From the NCBI GenBank assembly GCA_035454885.1, contig DATIGE010000064.1, positions 1 through 64,000 on the forward strand: a stretch of DNA of 64,000 nucleotides, written 5' to 3'. Below the pieces are notes generated by a model that saw nothing but the letters and a program-made list of their open reading frames with translations, made no database searches and had not been told where the DNA came from. The stretch comes from a bacterium (lineage in GTDB: Bacteria; UBA10199; JACPAL01; GCA-016699445). Both the position numbers and the translations under genes were made by a program. Positions 38,574 to 50,055 of this stretch are shown piece by piece. How positions within the stretch are numbered: position 1 is the stretch's first letter; every line of letters begins with the position of its first letter.

Positions 38574-38980
38574 CGCTCTTCCCCGTTTCTTCGGAAAAGC
38601 AAAGGCAGCTCGAGGAGCGGATGGCCCGCCTGGGCATCCGCGAGGCCGATCTTCTGGAAGACTTCGTGAAGGGGAGCGGGGCGGGGGGGCAGAAGATCAA
38701 CAAAACGTCCATGGCCGTTTCGATCCGCCACACGCCGTCCGGGATCATCGTTCGGTGCCAGGAATCCCGCAGCCAGGCGTTGAACCGTTTCTTCGCGCGC
38801 CGGCTCCTTTGCGAAAAGCTCGAGCGGAAGGTCCTGGGCCTTCAGTCGGAAGAAAAGCAGCGGATCGAGAAGGCACGCCGTCAAAAGCGGAAGCGCTCAA
38901 GGCGAGCCAAAGAGAAGATGCGCGCCAACAAGAAGCACCACTCCGAGAAGAAGGCCATGCGGGGACGCATCATTCTTTAG
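38570..38980 (+). CDS. release-factor-like GGQ domain protein
   Basis: A 136-residue protein consisting of only a class I release-factor catalytic domain: VKGSGAGGQKINKTS with the GGQ at residues 39-41, then VRCQESRSQALNRFFARRLL, ending in a highly basic tail (RRQKRKRSRRAKEKMRANKK). It resembles ArfB/YaeJ/PrfH-type ribosome rescue factors, which hydrolyse peptidyl-tRNA on stalled ribosomes. The family is clear; the exact rescue role is inferred. GTG 38570 and its AGGA lie in the dispersed repeat. It overlaps the convergent stomatin gene by 11 bp. Confidence 0.88.
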   Translation: MPLFPVSSEKQRQLEERMARLGIREADLLEDFVKGSGAGGQKINKTSMAVSIRHTPSGIIVRCQESRSQALNRFFARRLLCEKLERKVLGLQSEEKQRIEKARRQKRKRSRRAKEKMRANKKHHSEKKAMRGRIIL

Positions 38981-39899
38981 CCACCTTACCCACCCTGGCG
39001 TTATCGAACACCGAAAACGCCGTGGCCAGCATCCCGCTCATCTCGCTCGCGTTGGCGGGAACGATCATGGTCGTGGTCTGGCGTGCGAGCTGGCCGAATT
39101 GTTTCACGTACTCTTCGGCCACGCGAAGCTTCGCGGCGTCGGAGCCTCCGGGAGCCTTGAGGACGTCGGAAACCATCTTGAGCCCGTCGGCGGTCGCCTT
39201 GGCGACGGCCAGGATCGCAGCCGCCCGCCCTTCGGCCTCGTTGATCTGCTGCTGCCGGTTGGCCTCGGAATTCTTGATCGTTTCCTGCTTCACACCCTCG
39301 GCGCGGTTGATCTTCGAGTCGCGCTCTCCTTCGGAGGTCAGAATGACGGCGCGCTTCTCCCGTTCCGCCCGCATCTGCTTTTCCATCGCGGCCAATACGT
39401 CCTGCGGAGGGGTGATCGACTTGATCTCGTAGCGGAGGACCTTCACGCCCCAAGGGTCGGTGGCCTTGTCCAGGGCCATGATGACCTGGGTGTTGATGTG
39501 TTCTCTTTCTTCGAACGTGCGGTCCAGGTCGATCTTGCCGATCTCGGAGCGAAGCGTGGTCTGGGAGAGCTGGATGATGGCGATCGCGTAATTGTGGACA
39601 CCATAGGAGGCCTTCGCCGGGTCCATCACGCGATAGAAAAGAACTCCATCGACGCCCACCTGAACGTTGTCCCGCGTGATGCAGATCTGTTCCGGGATGT
39701 CCAAGACGATTTCCTTCAGGTTGTGCTTGTAGCGGACGCTCTCGATGAAAGGGAGCACGATGTGGAGACCCGCGTCCAAGGTCCGGCTGTACTTGCCCAG
39801 CCGTTCGACCACGTAAGCCGTCTGCTGGGGGACAATCCGGACCGTCCGTAGGAACATGACGACGGCGAAGATCAGGAATACGATCGCAGTAATGGTCAT
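38970..39899 (-). CDS. stomatin/QmcA-type SPFH domain protein
   Basis: A 309-residue membrane scaffold protein. N-terminal anchor (residues 2-18), SPFH domain (RIVPQQTAYVVERLGKYSRT, LHIVLPFIESVRYKHNL, ITRDNVQVGVDGVLFYRVMD), alpha-helical stretch (MEKQMRAEREKRAVILTSEG) and a C-terminal region with TTTMIVPANASEMSGML, as in QmcA and slipin proteins. It forms an operon with the NfeD gene just upstream (21 bp). These pairs are thought to organise membrane microdomains. Confidence 0.93.
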   Translation of the reverse strand: MTITAIVFLIFAVVMFLRTVRIVPQQTAYVVERLGKYSRTLDAGLHIVLPFIESVRYKHNLKEIVLDIPEQICITRDNVQVGVDGVLFYRVMDPAKASYGVHNYAIAIIQLSQTTLRSEIGKIDLDRTFEEREHINTQVIMALDKATDPWGVKVLRYEIKSITPPQDVLAAMEKQMRAEREKRAVILTSEGERDSKINRAEGVKQETIKNSEANRQQQINEAEGRAAAILAVAKATADGLKMVSDVLKAPGGSDAAKLRVAEEYVKQFGQLARQTTTMIVPANASEMSGMLATAFSVFDNARVGKVAKE

Positions 39900-39920
39900 A
39901 GCTCTTCTCCTTAGGTGTTC

Positions 39921-40361
39921 TTAATGCCCTTGGGCAGGTTCGGGAAGGACGACGAGTTTAACCCCATCGGTCCTCTGTACGTATACTTTGTTTCCTTTTT
40001 TGAAATCTGAATCGGTTTCGTTCACCGCCGTCCAGGCCACGCCTTGATAGGTAACGGAGGCCGTTCCGTGCGCGGGGATATCGTCCGTGAGTATGATCAC
40101 GGCGTTCTGGTCGATGGATATCCCGCTTTGGGTATGAAGGCTCTGCTTCAGTTTGTTGCGGAAAAGGAGCATGCTGCCAATGCCCAGCACGGCGAAGAGG
40201 ACGATTTCCCAAGGGAGGTTGTTCAGGCCCAGGAACTTGGCGAGTGCGACCAAGAGGGCGGCGACGCCGAAGAAAAGCAGGACGAGGCTCAAGCTGAACA
40301 TCTCGGCGATAATGAGCACCAGACCGGTCGCAACCCAAAAGAACGTCGGCGTCAGGTTCAT
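39921..40361 (-). CDS. NfeD-like membrane protein
   Basis: A 146-residue protein of the short NfeD type: three membrane helices (FFWVATGLVLIIAEMFSLSL, VLLFFGVAALLVALAKF, EIVLFAVLGIGSMLLF), then a soluble OB-fold C-terminus (GTASVTYQGVAWTAVNE, GNKVYVQRTDGVKLVVLP). Start at 40361 follows GGGGGAGAG. It lies upstream of the stomatin gene. NfeD is the usual partner of stomatin-type SPFH proteins. Confidence 0.9.
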   Translation of the reverse strand: MNLTPTFFWVATGLVLIIAEMFSLSLVLLFFGVAALLVALAKFLGLNNLPWEIVLFAVLGIGSMLLFRNKLKQSLHTQSGISIDQNAVIILTDDIPAHGTASVTYQGVAWTAVNETDSDFKKGNKVYVQRTDGVKLVVLPEPAQGH

Positions 40362-40546
40362 CTCTCCCCCAAAGCGGGTTTTCTTATACCCAATCCCCCG
40401 CCAAGAGGAAACCAAATTCCATTCCCGTATTCATGTGTATTCGAAACTTGACCGCTGGAATTGTGCTTTTTCCCAAAAACATCTAGAAGTTAAGACACAC
40501 GCTACGGGTGCGATGAAGGGCATAGGACTTTCGGAGGAGCTTAAAC

Positions 40547-43144: not shown

Positions 43145-45127
43145 TCAAGCCGCTGGAAATTCAAGCACCACCTCAAGCCCGCCTCCCTCGCGGTTCCGGG
43201 CTCGAATCTCGGCGCCCATCGCATGGGCCAGCATCCGGCTCATCGCGAGCCCGATGCCCGTACCTTGGGTCTTGCGCGTCATCTCGTTCTCGACCCGGTA
43301 AAAATTCTCAAAAACACGCGACAGCTCCTTGTCAGGAATGCCGGGCCCGCGATCCCTCCAGAGCCAAACAACACGGTCGCCCTTCCGCTCCAGAGAGGCC
43401 TCCAGCGACTTGTCGGCTGAGCCGGAACCGAATTTGAGGCTGTTATCCAGGAGAGACAGGAAGATCTGTTTGATCGCCTCGGGGTCGTAGAGAAGGGGAG
43501 GAAGGTCCTCGTCCGCCTTCCATGACAGGGCGAAGCCTGGCCGTTCGGCGATACCTTTCAGTTCACCACACAGCTCTTTAAAATCAGCCGTTGGAACATC
43601 CTTCTTGAGATTCAACTTGTAGGTTTTCTTTTCCAGACGGGCCAATTGAAGCACATTCTCGATCAGGCGAGACAACCGCCCGCTTTCCTTGCTGATCTGG
43701 CGGTAATATTCCGATATCTTGTCCTCGTCCTTGGCCCAGCCGTCCTCCAACATTTCCGCGTACATCCGAATGGACGTCAAAGGCGTCTTGAGCTCATGGG
43801 TGACCGCCGAGACGAAGTCCTGCCGCTTTTGCGAATAAGCCACCTGGGAGGCGGCCGTGCGGTAAATAAGGTAGAGGCCGATCGTCGCGAGCAGGACAAC
43901 CGCCGCGGAGAGAGCGTTCAGGAACCACCGCGTGCCGATGCGCGGCAGCACCGACGCATAAACGCCCCAGTCGAAAAGATTGAGGGGGTAACCGAGGGAA
44001 CGCTTGAAAAAGGGCGGCAGGCCATACAGCGCCAAATCCACGATGCCGTATTGGGCCAAGGTCCGGTCTCCCAGCTCCAGCCGGGCCAGGGCGAATTCGG
44101 GGAGCTCGGAGTTGGCGAAACTCTGGTCCATCAGCCATGAATAGAATTTCTCGAGATCCACCGCGAACCCTTGCAGGTACTGACGGTGATCCACCCAGAC
44201 CTTTCGATAGAAGAGGAGATACTGCTCGTCGACCAGACGGGCCTGAAACGGATCCGCGAGGACGGATTGGGGGAGCGTGACTTCCGGACGCCGCTCGGGC
44301 TCGGCCGGTTTCGAGGTCGCGGCTCCGGCGTAACCTTCCTGAGCGGGGGCCGAGGCTGAAACGGCGGGAGGGGAGGCCGGCGCCGGGGGAGGCGCTTCCT
44401 CCTTTTTGGGCGCCAGGGCGACCTTGGCCGATGACATCTTTCGTTTCTCCAATTGGACCGCCTGTTCCTGGATGGGATTGGGGTACACGTTCTTGGAGCG
44501 GGCGACCGACGCCTTGCCGACGCCCTGGGCCAACTCGGCCTCTGCGACGTCGCGAACGTCCTTCTGAACGTTCCCGCGATCGAAGTCGTCCATGGCCCCG
44601 GCGAGGCTCTTTTTGAGATCTCCCAATTCGACGTATCCGGGCACCCGAAACATGGCACCCTTCGGCTCCTTGCCCGCCCGCAGGGAAGAGGTCATGTCTT
44701 GCAGCTTCTGAAAGATCTCGCGCCGCCCTTGAGGCCGATGAATGAGGGAGTCCATCCCGGTGGGCCATCCTTCGGGAAGATAGGGCGTCGAAAACTCGCC
44801 GTCCGGGTCGATCTGAAAATAACCGATCAAGCCGCGCGCGTCGTCCTGGGGAAGGCGGGAGAGGGGGGAAAATCCAACGAGCTGCTTGGGGTACTTGTCG
44901 GGGGTCAAGGTGCCCCAAAAACGGTAATCGCTCCAGCGACGCCCGTCCTCGGCGGTCAGAAAATCGCTCACCGCCGCCTGCATCTGGTTGTAGACCTTCT
45001 CCGCCTGCCCCCGCCAAAGCTCCCGCTCTTCGCGACCCAGCTGGCGGTAGGAATTCCAGACGAAAAAACCCAAACTTCCCGCCAGGAGGATGAAGAAGAG
45101 GATGAATTGGAGGCGGAGACGTGTCAC
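43145..45127 (-). CDS. sensor histidine kinase with large periplasmic domain
   Basis: A 660-residue membrane kinase. TM1 spans residues about 5-23 and TM2 about 400-425, so about 375 residues are extracytoplasmic. That region includes a Pro/Ala-rich linker near residues 240-280. Then the HisKA helix with VTHELKTP (phospho-acceptor His444) and a HATPase domain: N-box LLDNSLKFGSG, G1 DRGPGIPDKEL, and G2 GTGIGLAMSRML. The sensor region resembles no named domain. It overlaps the response regulator by 4 bp. Confidence 0.92.
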   Translation of the reverse strand: MTRLRLQFILFFILLAGSLGFFVWNSYRQLGREERELWRGQAEKVYNQMQAAVSDFLTAEDGRRWSDYRFWGTLTPDKYPKQLVGFSPLSRLPQDDARGLIGYFQIDPDGEFSTPYLPEGWPTGMDSLIHRPQGRREIFQKLQDMTSSLRAGKEPKGAMFRVPGYVELGDLKKSLAGAMDDFDRGNVQKDVRDVAEAELAQGVGKASVARSKNVYPNPIQEQAVQLEKRKMSSAKVALAPKKEEAPPPAPASPPAVSASAPAQEGYAGAATSKPAEPERRPEVTLPQSVLADPFQARLVDEQYLLFYRKVWVDHRQYLQGFAVDLEKFYSWLMDQSFANSELPEFALARLELGDRTLAQYGIVDLALYGLPPFFKRSLGYPLNLFDWGVYASVLPRIGTRWFLNALSAAVVLLATIGLYLIYRTAASQVAYSQKRQDFVSAVTHELKTPLTSIRMYAEMLEDGWAKDEDKISEYYRQISKESGRLSRLIENVLQLARLEKKTYKLNLKKDVPTADFKELCGELKGIAERPGFALSWKADEDLPPLLYDPEAIKQIFLSLLDNSLKFGSGSADKSLEASLERKGDRVVWLWRDRGPGIPDKELSRVFENFYRVENEMTRKTQGTGIGLAMSRMLAHAMGAEIRARNREGGGLEVVLEFPAA

Positions 45128-45816
45128 ACGCGTCCAATTTTGTATCCTTCACCGCGGATGGTGAGGATCATCGCCGGCTCTTCGGCATTTCTTTCAACCT
45201 TACGGCGCAGTTTGGTGATGTGGATGTCGACGGTCCGCGTCTCCATGTGGGCGTTGCCGTAGCCCCAAACCTCCTTCAAAAGTTCCTGACGGCTGACGGG
45301 ACGGTCGCAGCACTGGATGAGGTACCGGAGGATGTCCACCTCGCGGCGGGTCAGCTCGATCGAGCGCCCGTCGATCGTGGCCACGAGGTTTCTCGGATCA
45401 ATCTCCAGCCCCTTCCAGACGACCTTTTCCTTCTCTTCCGTCAGTTTGCGGCTCCGGCGCAGGACGGCCTCCACGCGCGCCACGAGCTCGCGAACCGAGA
45501 AGGGCTTTGGGATATAATCGTCGGCGCCGAGCTTCAACCCCCGAATCACGTCCTCCTCGTCTCCCTTCGCCGTCAACATGATGATGGGCTGGGCCCGGTC
45601 GAGTTTGCGGATCTCGTTGCAAACCGCAAGCCCGTCGAGCCCCGGAAGCATAATGTCGAGGATGACCAGGTGATAGCGGCCCGACTGGGCTTTCTTCAGG
45701 CCTTCCTTGCCGTCGGAGGCCGCGTCGACGTCGTAACCGTTGTAGATGAAGACGTCGCAGAGACCTTTGCGAATCGACTCCTCATCCTCCACGATCAAAA
45801 TCGAAGGTTTCGGCAT
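45124..45816 (-). CDS. OmpR/PhoB family response regulator
   Basis: A 230-residue transcription factor. Receiver domain residues 1-118: acidic pocket DEE (11-13), phospho-acceptor Asp54 in ILDIMLPGLDG, and the switch Lys in KPFSVREL. The C-terminal winged helix has IELTRREVDILRYLIQ, RQELLKEVWGYGN and VDIHITKLRRKVERN. It is cotranscribed with the kinase. A direct repeat TTGTAAA (11-bp period) lies upstream in the divergent region and is a candidate binding site. Confidence 0.95.
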   Translation of the reverse strand: MPKPSILIVEDEESIRKGLCDVFIYNGYDVDAASDGKEGLKKAQSGRYHLVILDIMLPGLDGLAVCNEIRKLDRAQPIIMLTAKGDEEDVIRGLKLGADDYIPKPFSVRELVARVEAVLRRSRKLTEEKEKVVWKGLEIDPRNLVATIDGRSIELTRREVDILRYLIQCCDRPVSRQELLKEVWGYGNAHMETRTVDIHITKLRRKVERNAEEPAMILTIRGEGYKIGRV

Positions 45817-45850
45817 GGTTAGGAAGTTACCTTAATTCCATCTCTTGAGG

Positions 45851-45868
45851 TTGTAAAAGGTTTGTAAA
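45851..45868. promoter_or_regulatory. putative response-regulator direct repeat
   Basis: TTGTAAA occurs at 45851-45857 and 45862-45868, exactly one 11-bp turn apart, which is the usual half-site spacing for OmpR/PhoB-type dimers. It sits between the response-regulator gene and the divergent VWA gene and could regulate both. Confidence 0.5.
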
Positions 45869-45949
45869 GCGATCCTTCAAGTTTTTACCGGCCTGGGCCT
45901 ACCGTCCCGCGGGGATCACCGTAAGATGGCCGTCAAAAGGAGACCTCTT

Positions 45950-47431
45950 ATGAACCCCAAATTCAATCTTCACCCCCGCCGGATCGGCCAAGCCCTTGTG
46001 GCCGTTCTTTTGGCGGGGCTCATCGTCTACGGGGCGGTCGGCCGGGCGTCGTCACATCGGGCGGCGCCGGCCGGCCCTGCGGACACCGGCTGGAAGACCC
46101 AGGGCGCGGCCGGAGGCCACGTCAAGGTCCGCTCGAACCTCTCGCAGACCAAGGTGGTCCAGGGCTCGGACGGACTGGTCTATCTCGAGGTTGATCTGGA
46201 GGCCCCGGAGGCGTCCGATCTTTCCCGCGCGCGCCGCCCAACCGACTTCGTGATCGTCCTCGACCGCAGCGGCAGCATGGCGGACTACCGCAAGATGGAG
46301 TTCGCCCAAAAGGCGATCGGGTCGCTCATCAACCAACTGAAGACGGGCGACCGGTTCGCGCTCGTGGACTTCGACAGTGTCGTCGAAACGCCGATTCCGC
46401 TGACCGAAGTCTCCGAATCCGCCAAGGACCGCTTTCGGGGCGAAGTCCTGCGGATCACGCCCAGGGACGGCACCAACCTGGGCGGCGGGCTCATCGCCGG
46501 CATCGACGCGATCCAGTCCGCCGGCCGGAGGACGGGCCATCCCGAAGGGACCGCTTCGCGAGCCCAGCGAATGATACTTCTCTCGGACGGTTTGGCCAAC
46601 GAAGGCATCACGGACACGGCGGAGTTGGGACGCATCGCGGCGCGAGCGGTGAGCGGCGAGTTCGCCCTCTCCACCATCGGCGTCGGATTGGACTTCAACG
46701 AAGACCTCATGGCCTCGATCGCCGACCACGGGACCGGCAACTACACCTTCCTGGAGGACCTTTCCTCCCTCGACAAGGTCCTGGCCCAGGAGTTCTACGG
46801 GGCAAGCCGCATCTATGCGAGCCAGATCAAGGTGAAGCTGGACTTGAGTTCCGGCATCGAGGCCGTCGAGGCCTCCGGTTACCCGATTGAAAAGGAGGCG
46901 GGGGTGGCCGTCATCCGGCCAGGCCACCTTTACGCAGGACAGAAAAAGACCCTCTTCGTCACGCTCAAGCTCCCGACCGACGCCCTTTACACGAAGCCAC
47001 TCGGGTCGGCGACGGTTTCCTATGCCGTGAAGGAGCAGGGCTATACCGTCCCTCTTTTCGGATCGGACCTGAAGGTCGCCTGCCTGCCGCAGGAAAAGAG
47101 GGAGGAAGCGACGGCGTCGATTGTCCCCGGCGTCTACAAGGAGGCCTGGACCAAAAACAATTACGGAAGGCTCCTGAAGGACAACGCGGACAAGGTCCGT
47201 TCCGGCGACCGGGAAGGGGCCCTGGGGACCATCAGCGCCCACCGCGCCAAGCTTGAGGAGGCCTACGCCGCGGCGCCCGTTCCGGAAATGAAGGCCCAAT
47301 TGGACGACCTGAAGAAGATGGAGGACGAGGTGAGGGACGCCTTCAACGGGCCGGACGCGTCGGTGAAATCGAAACGTCTCTCGAAGGGCTACCAGTACCA
47401 GGGGATTCAACAACAGAGACAGTCAAACTAG
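45950..47431 (+). CDS. VWA domain protein, membrane-anchored
   Basis: A 493-residue protein from ATG 45950, preceded by AAAAGGAG; 45926 lacks a ribosome site. One N-terminal hydrophobic span (residues about 13-30) serves as anchor or signal. Residues about 97-280 are a VWA domain with the MIDAS motif DRSGSM (105-110), DGTNLGGGL and LLSDGLANEG. The C-terminal part has beta-sandwich strands and a charged, helical tail (LKKMEDEVRDAFNGPDASVK). It is probably periplasmic. Two further genes follow in an operon. Confidence 0.85.
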   Translation: MNPKFNLHPRRIGQALVAVLLAGLIVYGAVGRASSHRAAPAGPADTGWKTQGAAGGHVKVRSNLSQTKVVQGSDGLVYLEVDLEAPEASDLSRARRPTDFVIVLDRSGSMADYRKMEFAQKAIGSLINQLKTGDRFALVDFDSVVETPIPLTEVSESAKDRFRGEVLRITPRDGTNLGGGLIAGIDAIQSAGRRTGHPEGTASRAQRMILLSDGLANEGITDTAELGRIAARAVSGEFALSTIGVGLDFNEDLMASIADHGTGNYTFLEDLSSLDKVLAQEFYGASRIYASQIKVKLDLSSGIEAVEASGYPIEKEAGVAVIRPGHLYAGQKKTLFVTLKLPTDALYTKPLGSATVSYAVKEQGYTVPLFGSDLKVACLPQEKREEATASIVPGVYKEAWTKNNYGRLLKDNADKVRSGDREGALGTISAHRAKLEEAYAAAPVPEMKAQLDDLKKMEDEVRDAFNGPDASVKSKRLSKGYQYQGIQQQRQSN

Positions 47432-47440
47432 GGAGGAATT

Positions 47441-48061
47441 ATGTCACTTGCCTACCGAATCAAACGTCTCGTCAAGTCCGACGCCCACGCCCTCGTGGAG
47501 GGGCTCGAGGCCCCCAAGTGGGTCCTCGCCCAGGCCTTGCGCGACATGGAGGAAGAACTGGAAAAAATGGAGGCGGACCTGGGCATCCGCCGATCGCAGA
47601 TCGCGAAGATGAAGGACCACCTGATCGCCAGCGAGGCGATTCTGTCGGCCCTCGAAAACGACATTGAGTTCGCCATGAGCGAGAAGAGGGAGGACATCGC
47701 CAAGAACCTCATCCGCAAACTTCTGACGGCCAAGAGCGCCCTCGAGGATCTGTCCCGGAGATCGAAGGCCTGCGAGGAGGAGCTCGTCTCCGTGGAAGAG
47801 GACTACCGGGTCAAAAAAGGGGCCTACGAAGATATCAGGGGCCGGTGCGAAATCCTCAACTTGAGCCGCATCGACGACGACGCCTTCCAAGCGGCCGCCC
47901 GCCTTGTCTCCCAGGAAGGAGGCCCGGACGTGTCGCTCGATCACCAGGTGGAGATCGAGTTCCTGCGCAGGCTTCAAAGACACAAGGAGGCCGCTTCCCG
48001 CGGCACGTCATCCAGCACGCTGGATCATGGAAGACAGGGAGGGGACCATGAGCCGTCTTAG
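47441..48061 (+). CDS. PspA/IM30-like coiled-coil protein
   Basis: A 206-residue helical protein. The opening LAYRIKRLVKSDAHALVEGL, then LRDMEEELEKMEADLGIRRS and EDIAKNLIRKLLTAKSALED, follow the PspA/IM30 pattern of a short amphipathic first helix and long coiled coils. PspA/IM30 proteins form ESCRT-III-like assemblies on stressed membranes. The sequence is somewhat shorter than PspA, and lacks a clear PspF partner. ATG 47441 follows GGGAGG, 9 bp after the VWA gene. Confidence 0.72.
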   Translation: MSLAYRIKRLVKSDAHALVEGLEAPKWVLAQALRDMEEELEKMEADLGIRRSQIAKMKDHLIASEAILSALENDIEFAMSEKREDIAKNLIRKLLTAKSALEDLSRRSKACEEELVSVEEDYRVKKGAYEDIRGRCEILNLSRIDDDAFQAAARLVSQEGGPDVSLDHQVEIEFLRRLQRHKEAASRGTSSSTLDHGRQGGDHEPS

Positions 48062-48266
48062 CCTTTTCCATTTGGGAGTCTCGCTGGTGTTGGGGGCGGC
48101 GGCGGCGGCCTTTGTTCTCCCCGTCAGCCTCCCCGGGGCCATTACGGCCTTCGGCTCGGTGCAGATCCTCTTTGCACTCCGTGCTCATCGAAAATCCCGC
48201 GGAAACAGATTCCGGGAGGCTCATAAAACGGCGGAGCGCATCCTCGAGGAATGGAAATTTACTTGA
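48048..48266 (+). CDS. small membrane protein of the VWA-PspA operon
   Basis: A 72-residue protein, with its start inside the end of the PspA-like gene (14-bp overlap) after GGGAGGGG. Two hydrophobic segments (LFHLGVSLVLGAAAAAFVLP and AITAFGSVQILFAL) are followed by a basic cytoplasmic tail (AHRKSRGNRFREAHKTAERI). It could be a membrane partner like PspB/PspC or a PspA anchor, but it is not homologous to these by eye. Confidence 0.65.
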   Translation: MSRLSLFHLGVSLVLGAAAAAFVLPVSLPGAITAFGSVQILFALRAHRKSRGNRFREAHKTAERILEEWKFT

Positions 48267-48783: not shown

Positions 48784-50055
48784 CTACTTGGCCTCGATTT
48801 CGACCAGAACCATCGTCGGATCGATGTCCTCCAGGATCGTCCCGGGTGGTACGGTCATGTTCGCATCGGAGAGAGACACCGACCATTCGCCGCGGCCATA
48901 ATTGTAGAGCTTGAGGACGGCGCGTATCTCATTGGGATCCATAAACTGGAAGGCATGGCGGGGCCCGGAGAAGGTCACCGAGACGACTTTGGGCTCGACC
49001 GACTCGACGTACAGTTCCGGAGAGGGATCGGTGTACTCGACGGGGAGGACGAAGGTCCGGTGGATGATGCGGGTCTCGTGCACGACGGCGTACCAAAGCG
49101 CCAGCGTGATGAGGAGTGAGAACGCCTTTTCTCGGAAATTCCGGACGAAGAGATTCGCCAGGAAGCTCCGCTTCTTGGACGGAGCGAGATCGGCGTAGAA
49201 TTTTTCCAGGACGGCGCGAAGGCGGCGCGCTTCGCCCGGAGCGCCCAAATCCTCCAGGCGCCCCCCAACCGCGGCCGAAACCCGTCCCGTCTCCTCCGAC
49301 ACGACCAGGCACAGGGCGTCGCTCACCTCCGAGATGCCCACCGCCGCCGCATGCCTCATGCCGCCGCGGCCCGAGCGCGAGAAATCCTTCGCCAGAGGCA
49401 GTTGGCAACCGAAGCGGACCACGCGCTCGCCGTCGACCAACACCGCCCCGTCGTGTCCCACGGAATGCGGATCAAAAATGCTCTTGAGGAGGGGTTCGCT
49501 CAGGTCGCCGTTCAACCCGAACCCGCCGGTAATGTGACGGTCGATGGTCCCCATGCCCTTGAGGACGACCAAGGCGCCGATCCTCTGGCCGGACAGGTCC
49601 GTCAGCGTGTTGGTGAGAATGTCGACGACCCGGGGCGTCTGGGACGACGGCGCGCTCGACCCCCTGAACTTGCGGTTCAGGCTCCACACGGCCACCTGCT
49701 CAAAGAAATACTTCAGCTCCTCCTGAAAGATAATGATGACCGCGATCAGGATCACGGCGAAGAACGACTGGAGGACGAAGGAGGTCAGGATCAGTCCGAA
49801 CTCGTGGGCCAAGAGGTAGACCAGGCCGACGATCGCGATGCCCGCCAACACGAAGAAGGCCCGTCTCCGTTTGAACCAGACGAAGACGGCGTAGAGGATC
49901 ATCGACATGAACGCGATGTCGACGAATCCGGCGACGCCGATCTCGCGGGTCAGGGACCAAAGATCCAACGGATGAATGTCGAAGTGGGCCACCCGCCGCC
50001 GCTTAGCAAAGGACGCAAAGTCTGTCCATCCCGTGTCAAAAAGTATAGACTTCAT
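48784..50055 (-). CDS. diadenylate cyclase fused to YbbR domain
   Basis: A 423-residue protein that would make c-di-AMP. Three N-terminal membrane helices (residues about 42-110), then a DAC domain with the DGA motif at 202-204 (GHDGAVLVDGE) and the second motif as RHAAAVGISE (234-243), where the usual Arg in position three of RHR is Ala. Residues about 300-423 are a YbbR-like domain (YAVVHETRIIHRTFVLPVEY, VEPKVVSVTFSGP). In most bacteria cdaA and ybbR are separate neighbours. The Ala substitution bears on activity, so it needs testing. GTP or ATP use is not shown. Confidence 0.85.
   Translation of the reverse strand: MKSILFDTGWTDFASFAKRRRVAHFDIHPLDLWSLTREIGVAGFVDIAFMSMILYAVFVWFKRRRAFFVLAGIAIVGLVYLLAHEFGLILTSFVLQSFFAVILIAVIIIFQEELKYFFEQVAVWSLNRKFRGSSAPSSQTPRVVDILTNTLTDLSGQRIGALVVLKGMGTIDRHITGGFGLNGDLSEPLLKSIFDPHSVGHDGAVLVDGERVVRFGCQLPLAKDFSRSGRGGMRHAAAVGISEVSDALCLVVSEETGRVSAAVGGRLEDLGAPGEARRLRAVLEKFYADLAPSKKRSFLANLFVRNFREKAFSLLITLALWYAVVHETRIIHRTFVLPVEYTDPSPELYVESVEPKVVSVTFSGPRHAFQFMDPNEIRAVLKLYNYGRGEWSVSLSDANMTVPPGTILEDIDPTMVLVEIEAK

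Follow-up and report, generated by a model that had tools for sequence, protein, structure and literature searches.

A two-component system divergent from a VWA-PspA operon with a cross-phylum conserved operator: a candidate envelope-response module

We analysed a stretch of 64,000 nucleotides from a bacterial contig (the window) and conclude that it probably encodes a self-contained envelope-response module, in which a two-component pair drives a divergent operon for a VWA protein, a PspA-like protein and a small membrane protein. The genes of an OmpR/PhoB-type regulator and a sensor kinase lie on the reverse strand, divergent from the VWA-PspA-membrane-peptide operon on the forward strand, and the regulator gene overlaps the kinase start by 4 bp (Table 1). 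An initial annotation of this DNA had proposed such a two-component pair opposite a VWA, PspA-like and peptide operon, and every one of these elements was found. The interval it had given, 45124-48266, covers the regulator and the operon, but the kinase gene (45127-43145) falls outside. The VWA gene probably starts at 45950 rather than at 45926, because the sequence aaaggag, a Shine-Dalgarno motif, precedes the former position and the related genes begin there.

Table 1. Features of the module and of its intergenic region (window coordinates)
Feature	Position	Strand	Basis
Sensor histidine kinase, 660 aa	43145..45127	-	Pfam HisKA, HATPase_c; predicted structure; relatives
OmpR/PhoB-type response regulator, 230 aa	45124..45816	-	Pfam Response_reg, Trans_reg_C
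Direct repeat TTGTAAA-N4-TTGTAAA, both half-sites facing the VWA gene	45851..45868	+	Single exact genome copy; cross-phylum conservation
Inverted third half-site TTTAC, 15 bp past the direct repeat	45884..45888	+	Invariant in 14 aligned operators
Possible degenerate fourth half-site	45895..45899	+	GGGCC here, TTGNC-like in relatives; putative reading as half-site
-10-like element TAAGAT, VWA operon promoter	45922..45927	+	TANNNT at +34 to +36 after TTTAC in relatives
Exported VWA protein, 493 aa	45950..47431	+	Pfam VWA, MIDAS residues, model, PDB comparison
Short PspA/IM30-family protein, 206 aa	47441..48061	+	PF04012; PDB Vipp1/PspA matches
72-aa membrane peptide, gene overlapping the PspA gene	48048..48266	+	Alignment with membrane proteins of relatives

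Two-component control of the divergent operon is well supported by comparison of gene order and intergenic regions. Here, a TTGTAAA repeat with an 11-bp period had been noticed before; it is indeed present and conserved across phyla, but it is merely part of a larger operator. The direct repeat, TTGTAAAaggtTTGTAAA (45851-45868), has its sole exact copy in the 2.76-Mb genome at this place, and a reversed control pattern had zero matches in the genome at up to one mismatch. As a tandem direct repeat with an 11-bp period and cross-phylum conservation, it is a predicted site of the OmpR/PhoB type. The full operator reads GTAAA-N6-GTAAA-N15/16-TTTAC, and 41 distinct copies of it were recovered. In 158 kb of module loci the N6 spacing gave 33 matches and the spacings N2-5 and N7-11 at most one each, and reversed control patterns gave 0; the third spacer measured 15 or 16 in 30 of 32 matches. 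We rejected a chance repeat on account of the single exact genome copy, the clean reversed controls and the strictness of the spacing.

For the anatomy counts the 41 distinct operators were aligned on TTTAC. Both GTAAA half-sites and TTTAC itself were invariant in a 14-sequence operator alignment, and a C at +11, inside a TTGNC-like element, was present in 40/41 operators. Two loci (L078 and L083) carry a perfect TTTAC at the fourth position, so that two tandem pairs face each other. Together, this arrangement suggests that the operator may hold two regulator dimers, each bound head-to-tail and the two inverted relative to each other, the fourth half-site being degenerate. A TANNNT motif follows TTTAC at +34 to +36 in about 25 of the 41 operators. 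We searched the VWA promoter for a canonical -35 element and found none there. The TTGNC element was rejected as a -35, since its distance of 22 bp from the -10 exceeds what ordinary sigma-70 promoters allow.

The module recurs in close and distant relatives. A protein matching the VWA protein of the window along most of its length was found in 4/46 genomes of the phylum, that of the window included. In G041, a genome of the same class but of another family, all five genes occur in identical order, and two further genomes (G044 and G008) keep kinase, regulator and VWA gene without PspA alongside. G041 and G008 carry exact copies of the repeat and G044 one with a single mismatch, its position is conserved in each, and in an alignment of these close relatives the downstream TTTAC and then the -10-like element follow the direct repeat in register. 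Searching the genome collection with the sensor region of the kinase revealed 17 loci labelled Acidobacteria, Gammaproteobacteria, Deltaproteobacteria, Phycisphaerae and Fibrobacterales. The layout including PspA was found in loci with the first three of these labels; the regulator-kinase and VWA-PspA genes are divergent in L072, L073, L074, L076 and L079, and the membrane protein is present too where the contig reaches. In L075 the PspA gene directly follows the operator region, and the Phycisphaerae locus keeps kinase, VWA gene and operator. GTAAA-N6-GTAAA with TTTAC 15/16 bp further on, facing the VWA or PspA gene, was recovered in 15 of 16 intergenic regions (shuffle P <= 0.002 each); the exception is L080, whose intergenic region revealed no operator.

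Searches with the C-terminal domain of the VWA protein yielded matches in 8/347 genomes of the phylum of L073 (one of them weak), in 11/301 genomes of the order of L076 and in 69/331 genomes of the phylum of L079. Approximately 24 matches in the last phylum had E < 1e-20, and the weaker ones there were mostly without module features. At VWA loci with sufficient upstream DNA, a divergent regulator was present in about 30/36 (L133 is doubtful) and the direct repeat in 31/36. Other genes lie upstream of the VWA gene in L127, L129, L130 and L131, and the operator is still kept. PspA was encoded in 23 of the 34 VWA loci with sufficient downstream DNA and absent from 11; with roughly one locus in three lacking it beside the VWA gene, it is not obligatory. 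Two loci, L075 and L080, are permuted, with PspA first and a VWA protein further downstream that matches the PF25106 family. The Acidobacteria genome G062 apparently has two copies of regulator and operator on different contigs (L071 and L077).

In the mechanism that we propose, the kinase would sense a periplasmic or membrane signal and phosphorylate the regulator, which in its phosphorylated form would bind the operator as tandem dimers and activate the VWA-pspA-membrane-protein operon. The regulator probably also adjusts its own gene, whose start codon lies about 35 bp from the operator in the window. PspA would work at the inner face of the cytoplasmic membrane. The small membrane protein would assist it there and could recruit it through a conserved tail, and the VWA protein would work on the periplasmic side. 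We infer the signal, the protein contacts and membrane repair; an envelope-stress or membrane-repair role is suggested by the PspA homology together with the possible tolQR link described below. The earlier proposal that the pair controls the VWA operon through the repeat is strongly supported by the gene order and the operator, both conserved across phyla. The VWA promoter is without a canonical -35, and the direction of control, activation and not repression, is therefore a matter of inference.

An operator about 35 bp from the start codon of the regulator gene could also act on the regulator promoter, and it might serve nothing but autoregulation of the regulator-kinase pair, leaving the VWA-PspA operon as a conserved neighbour under its own control. 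This is very improbable, since the operator is retained before VWA genes that are not beside the regulator (the four loci named above), is always oriented toward the VWA or PspA gene, and has the -10-like element at a fixed distance on the VWA side. That VWA genes apart from the regulator retain it makes a function of the operator at the VWA operon very likely. The regulator could still act there mainly as a repressor, with the signal relieving repression: the promoter is without clear activation geometry, and a bound regulator could mask the conserved TTGNC, 22 bp from the -10. However, OmpR-family regulators usually activate from positions well upstream of the -10, which is where the main half-sites are found, and there is no good -35 with which a repressor would compete, so that we regard repression as unlikely.

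Another question is which protein is the real output. The VWA protein may be the main one, and kinase, regulator and VWA protein would then form a unit for surface or periplasmic assembly, or for kinase feedback, in which PspA is optional. The VWA genes without adjacent PspA in G044 and G008, the 11/34 loci lacking it downstream and the VWA model, a well-formed Sec23/24-core-like structure with an intact metal site, all fit this idea. Nevertheless, three record groups have PspA and the membrane protein downstream, the gene right after the operator in L075 is that of PspA and not of VWA, and a missing PspA could be encoded elsewhere; we consider a unit of this kind possible but doubtful. Our preferred reading remains the envelope-response module that includes PspA. 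A more elaborate form of it, which we put forward only tentatively, is a cross-phylum module in which the pair drives a Sec23/24-core-like VWA protein outside and a short PspA inside through a palindromic operator of four half-sites, with the VWA protein binding the kinase. If true, membrane maintenance by such a pair from both sides would amount to a Psp response of a new kind.

The VWA protein has a clear Pfam match to the VWA domain (E 1.5e-15), and its MIDAS metal site (DxSxS, T, D) is intact and invariant in 9 sequences. A signal or anchor helix is followed by the VWA domain within a beta-sandwich and by a C-terminal helical domain. The protein had been described as anchored; an N-terminal signal or anchor helix is present, but a cleaved signal peptide is an equally possible reading, as is a lipobox for the protein of G008. 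Archaeal ArnB, a cytosolic protein, and the Sec23/24 core (PDB 8s05 and 5a8j) are the nearest structures to the model (pLDDT 82.9), sharing the VWA domain in a beta-sandwich and the helical domain with a TM-score of 0.62 by query and 0.78 by target. At 15% identity, and with an export signal on the window protein, the fold alone is shared.

An exported VWA protein is also a feature of the marine proteobacterial sortase target family TIGR03788, whose system likewise comes with a kinase and a regulator of its own. We rejected membership in that system: the window protein scored 50.8 against 551.65 bits, the match was limited to the VWA region, and the sensor region of the kinase gave no match to sortase-system kinase models.

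The PspA-like protein belongs to the PspA/IM30 family (PF04012, E 3.8e-11; 43.4 bits against a Pfam gathering score of 33.9). It is short, covering positions 5-138 of the 220 in the Pfam profile, and it stayed below the full-length PspA equivalog TIGR02977 (23.4 vs 242.95 bits) and the LiaH equivalog (15.2 vs 380 bits). A profile of the module PspA matched solved Vipp1/PspA structures in the PDB at E 2e-13. It is the only PF04012 protein found in the window genome, and the same holds for the module PspA in four outside genomes. The last gene had been read as a two-helix peptide. A 72-aa membrane peptide is indeed encoded, but we now regard it as the end of a larger membrane-protein family: it aligns with the last third of proteins of 178-206 aa, a similar C-terminal tail included, and these occupy the equivalent place in the modules of relatives.

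Both signaling proteins have the expected domains. The regulator combines a receiver (Response_reg, E 1.3e-32) with a winged-helix output domain (Trans_reg_C, E 1.8e-23), which places it in the OmpR/PhoB type, and its GerE match is weak (14.3 bits vs a cut-off of 23.5). It is 50-63% identical to the regulators of loci L071-L078. Its scores were below the equivalog cut-offs for YycF (WalR; 197.9/340 bits), CpxR (146.1/341), PhoB (202.2/296.2) and MtrA (213.9/300). The kinase matched HisKA (E 2.3e-19) and HATPase_c (E 2e-21), without a Pfam match to HAMP. We find two membrane segments and, in line with the large periplasmic sensor and Pro/Ala linker of the initial annotation, a large extracytoplasmic sensor, which a disordered stretch rich in Pro and Ala (about residues 153-286) divides. 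The predicted structure of the sensor (mean pLDDT 62) had no PDB match at E <= 0.001, and Cache-type receptors appeared among the weak matches only, a hint at a Cache-like sensor that we do not press into a claim.

The response had also been called a non-canonical Psp response without PspF. In a local check the adjacent divergent genes encode the regulator and the kinase, not PspF. LiaR is of the NarL/LuxR type, while the regulator in the window is of the OmpR/PhoB type with a Trans_reg_C output. PspA under two-component control is not new, being known from LiaRS/LiaIH and from actinobacterial cases (PMC9239133, PMC11237479). LiaFSR/LiaIH of Bacillus subtilis likewise places a PspA-family and small-membrane-protein operon under two-component control without PspF (PMC9239133, PMC11237479). 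In contrast, the window module is without a recognised LiaF or Toastrack homologue, its operon is headed by a VWA protein, the genes are divergent and the operator is unlike. PspF/PspABC also joins a PspA-family effector to a small membrane protein, but the window operon has neither a PspB or PspC match nor an adjoining sigma-54 activator gene, and its PspA is short and far under the PspA equivalog cut-off. The CpxR box is GTAAA-N5-GTAAA, which the window half-sites resemble. They also fit the WalR consensus of the WalRK (YycFG) system, TGTWAH-N5-TGTWAH (quoted in PMC9210968). Different from WalRK and CpxAR, the operator adds an inverted half-site at fixed spacing, and the regulator is under both equivalog cut-offs.

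The new elements here are the operator, the use of an OmpR-type regulator and the association with VWA. Two large PSP surveys contain neither VWA nor von Willebrand in their main text (PMC9239133, PMC11237479), and a literature search for VWA paired with PspA or IM30, most subscription papers lying outside it, found nothing relevant. The module links PspA with an exported VWA protein. As a regulatory arrangement for PspA-type membrane protection it joins PspF, ClgR and LiaRS, and it occurs in lineages whose Psp regulation has received little study.

The conserved operator can be used as a search key that marks the module and flags extra targets such as tolQR. We built an operator model from the module sites themselves and scanned 14 genomes; the module operator was the top match in each, and other matches were few and mostly weak. 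In the window genome, TGTAAA-N6-GTAAA occurs at three sites only: in the module, about 160 bp upstream of tolQ, and at one other place. The second of these (C18:46067-46084; L050 at about 1339) reads CTGTAAA-N4-CCGTAAA and lies upstream of tolQR, just before a TTGACT element. In G041 and G044, too, tolQ is preceded by a similar site, and G008 has no good repeat site upstream of tolQ. The three best tolQ-upstream repeat matches among 32 phylum genomes come from three of the four module-bearing genomes, with a chance of 8e-4 by simple counting, which is supportive only as the comparison was made after the pattern had been noticed. We conclude that tolQR is a probable second target of the regulator in this class. 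An operator-like site in three parts precedes the gene of a DUF2306 membrane protein (C43:2719-2755, L103; E 0.008 for the genome) and might be either a further target or a chance match. Another candidate operator site is located at C54:53157 (E 0.33). The gene contexts of these last two sites are not clearly envelope-related, and both may be due to chance.

Two other loci of the window were recorded. About 3 kb from the module, a Band-7/SPFH protein adjoins an NfeD protein (38970-40415, reverse strand); the PSP surveys report that in other bacteria band-7 proteins neighbour PspA (PMC9239133, PMC11237479). On the other side, a CdaA-type c-di-AMP synthase is encoded at 48784-50055 (reverse strand; DAC E 8e-32). 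Its C-terminal extension of about 155 aa has no Pfam match and by eye resembles a YbbR/CdaR-type domain; the protein would then be a CdaA-CdaR fusion.
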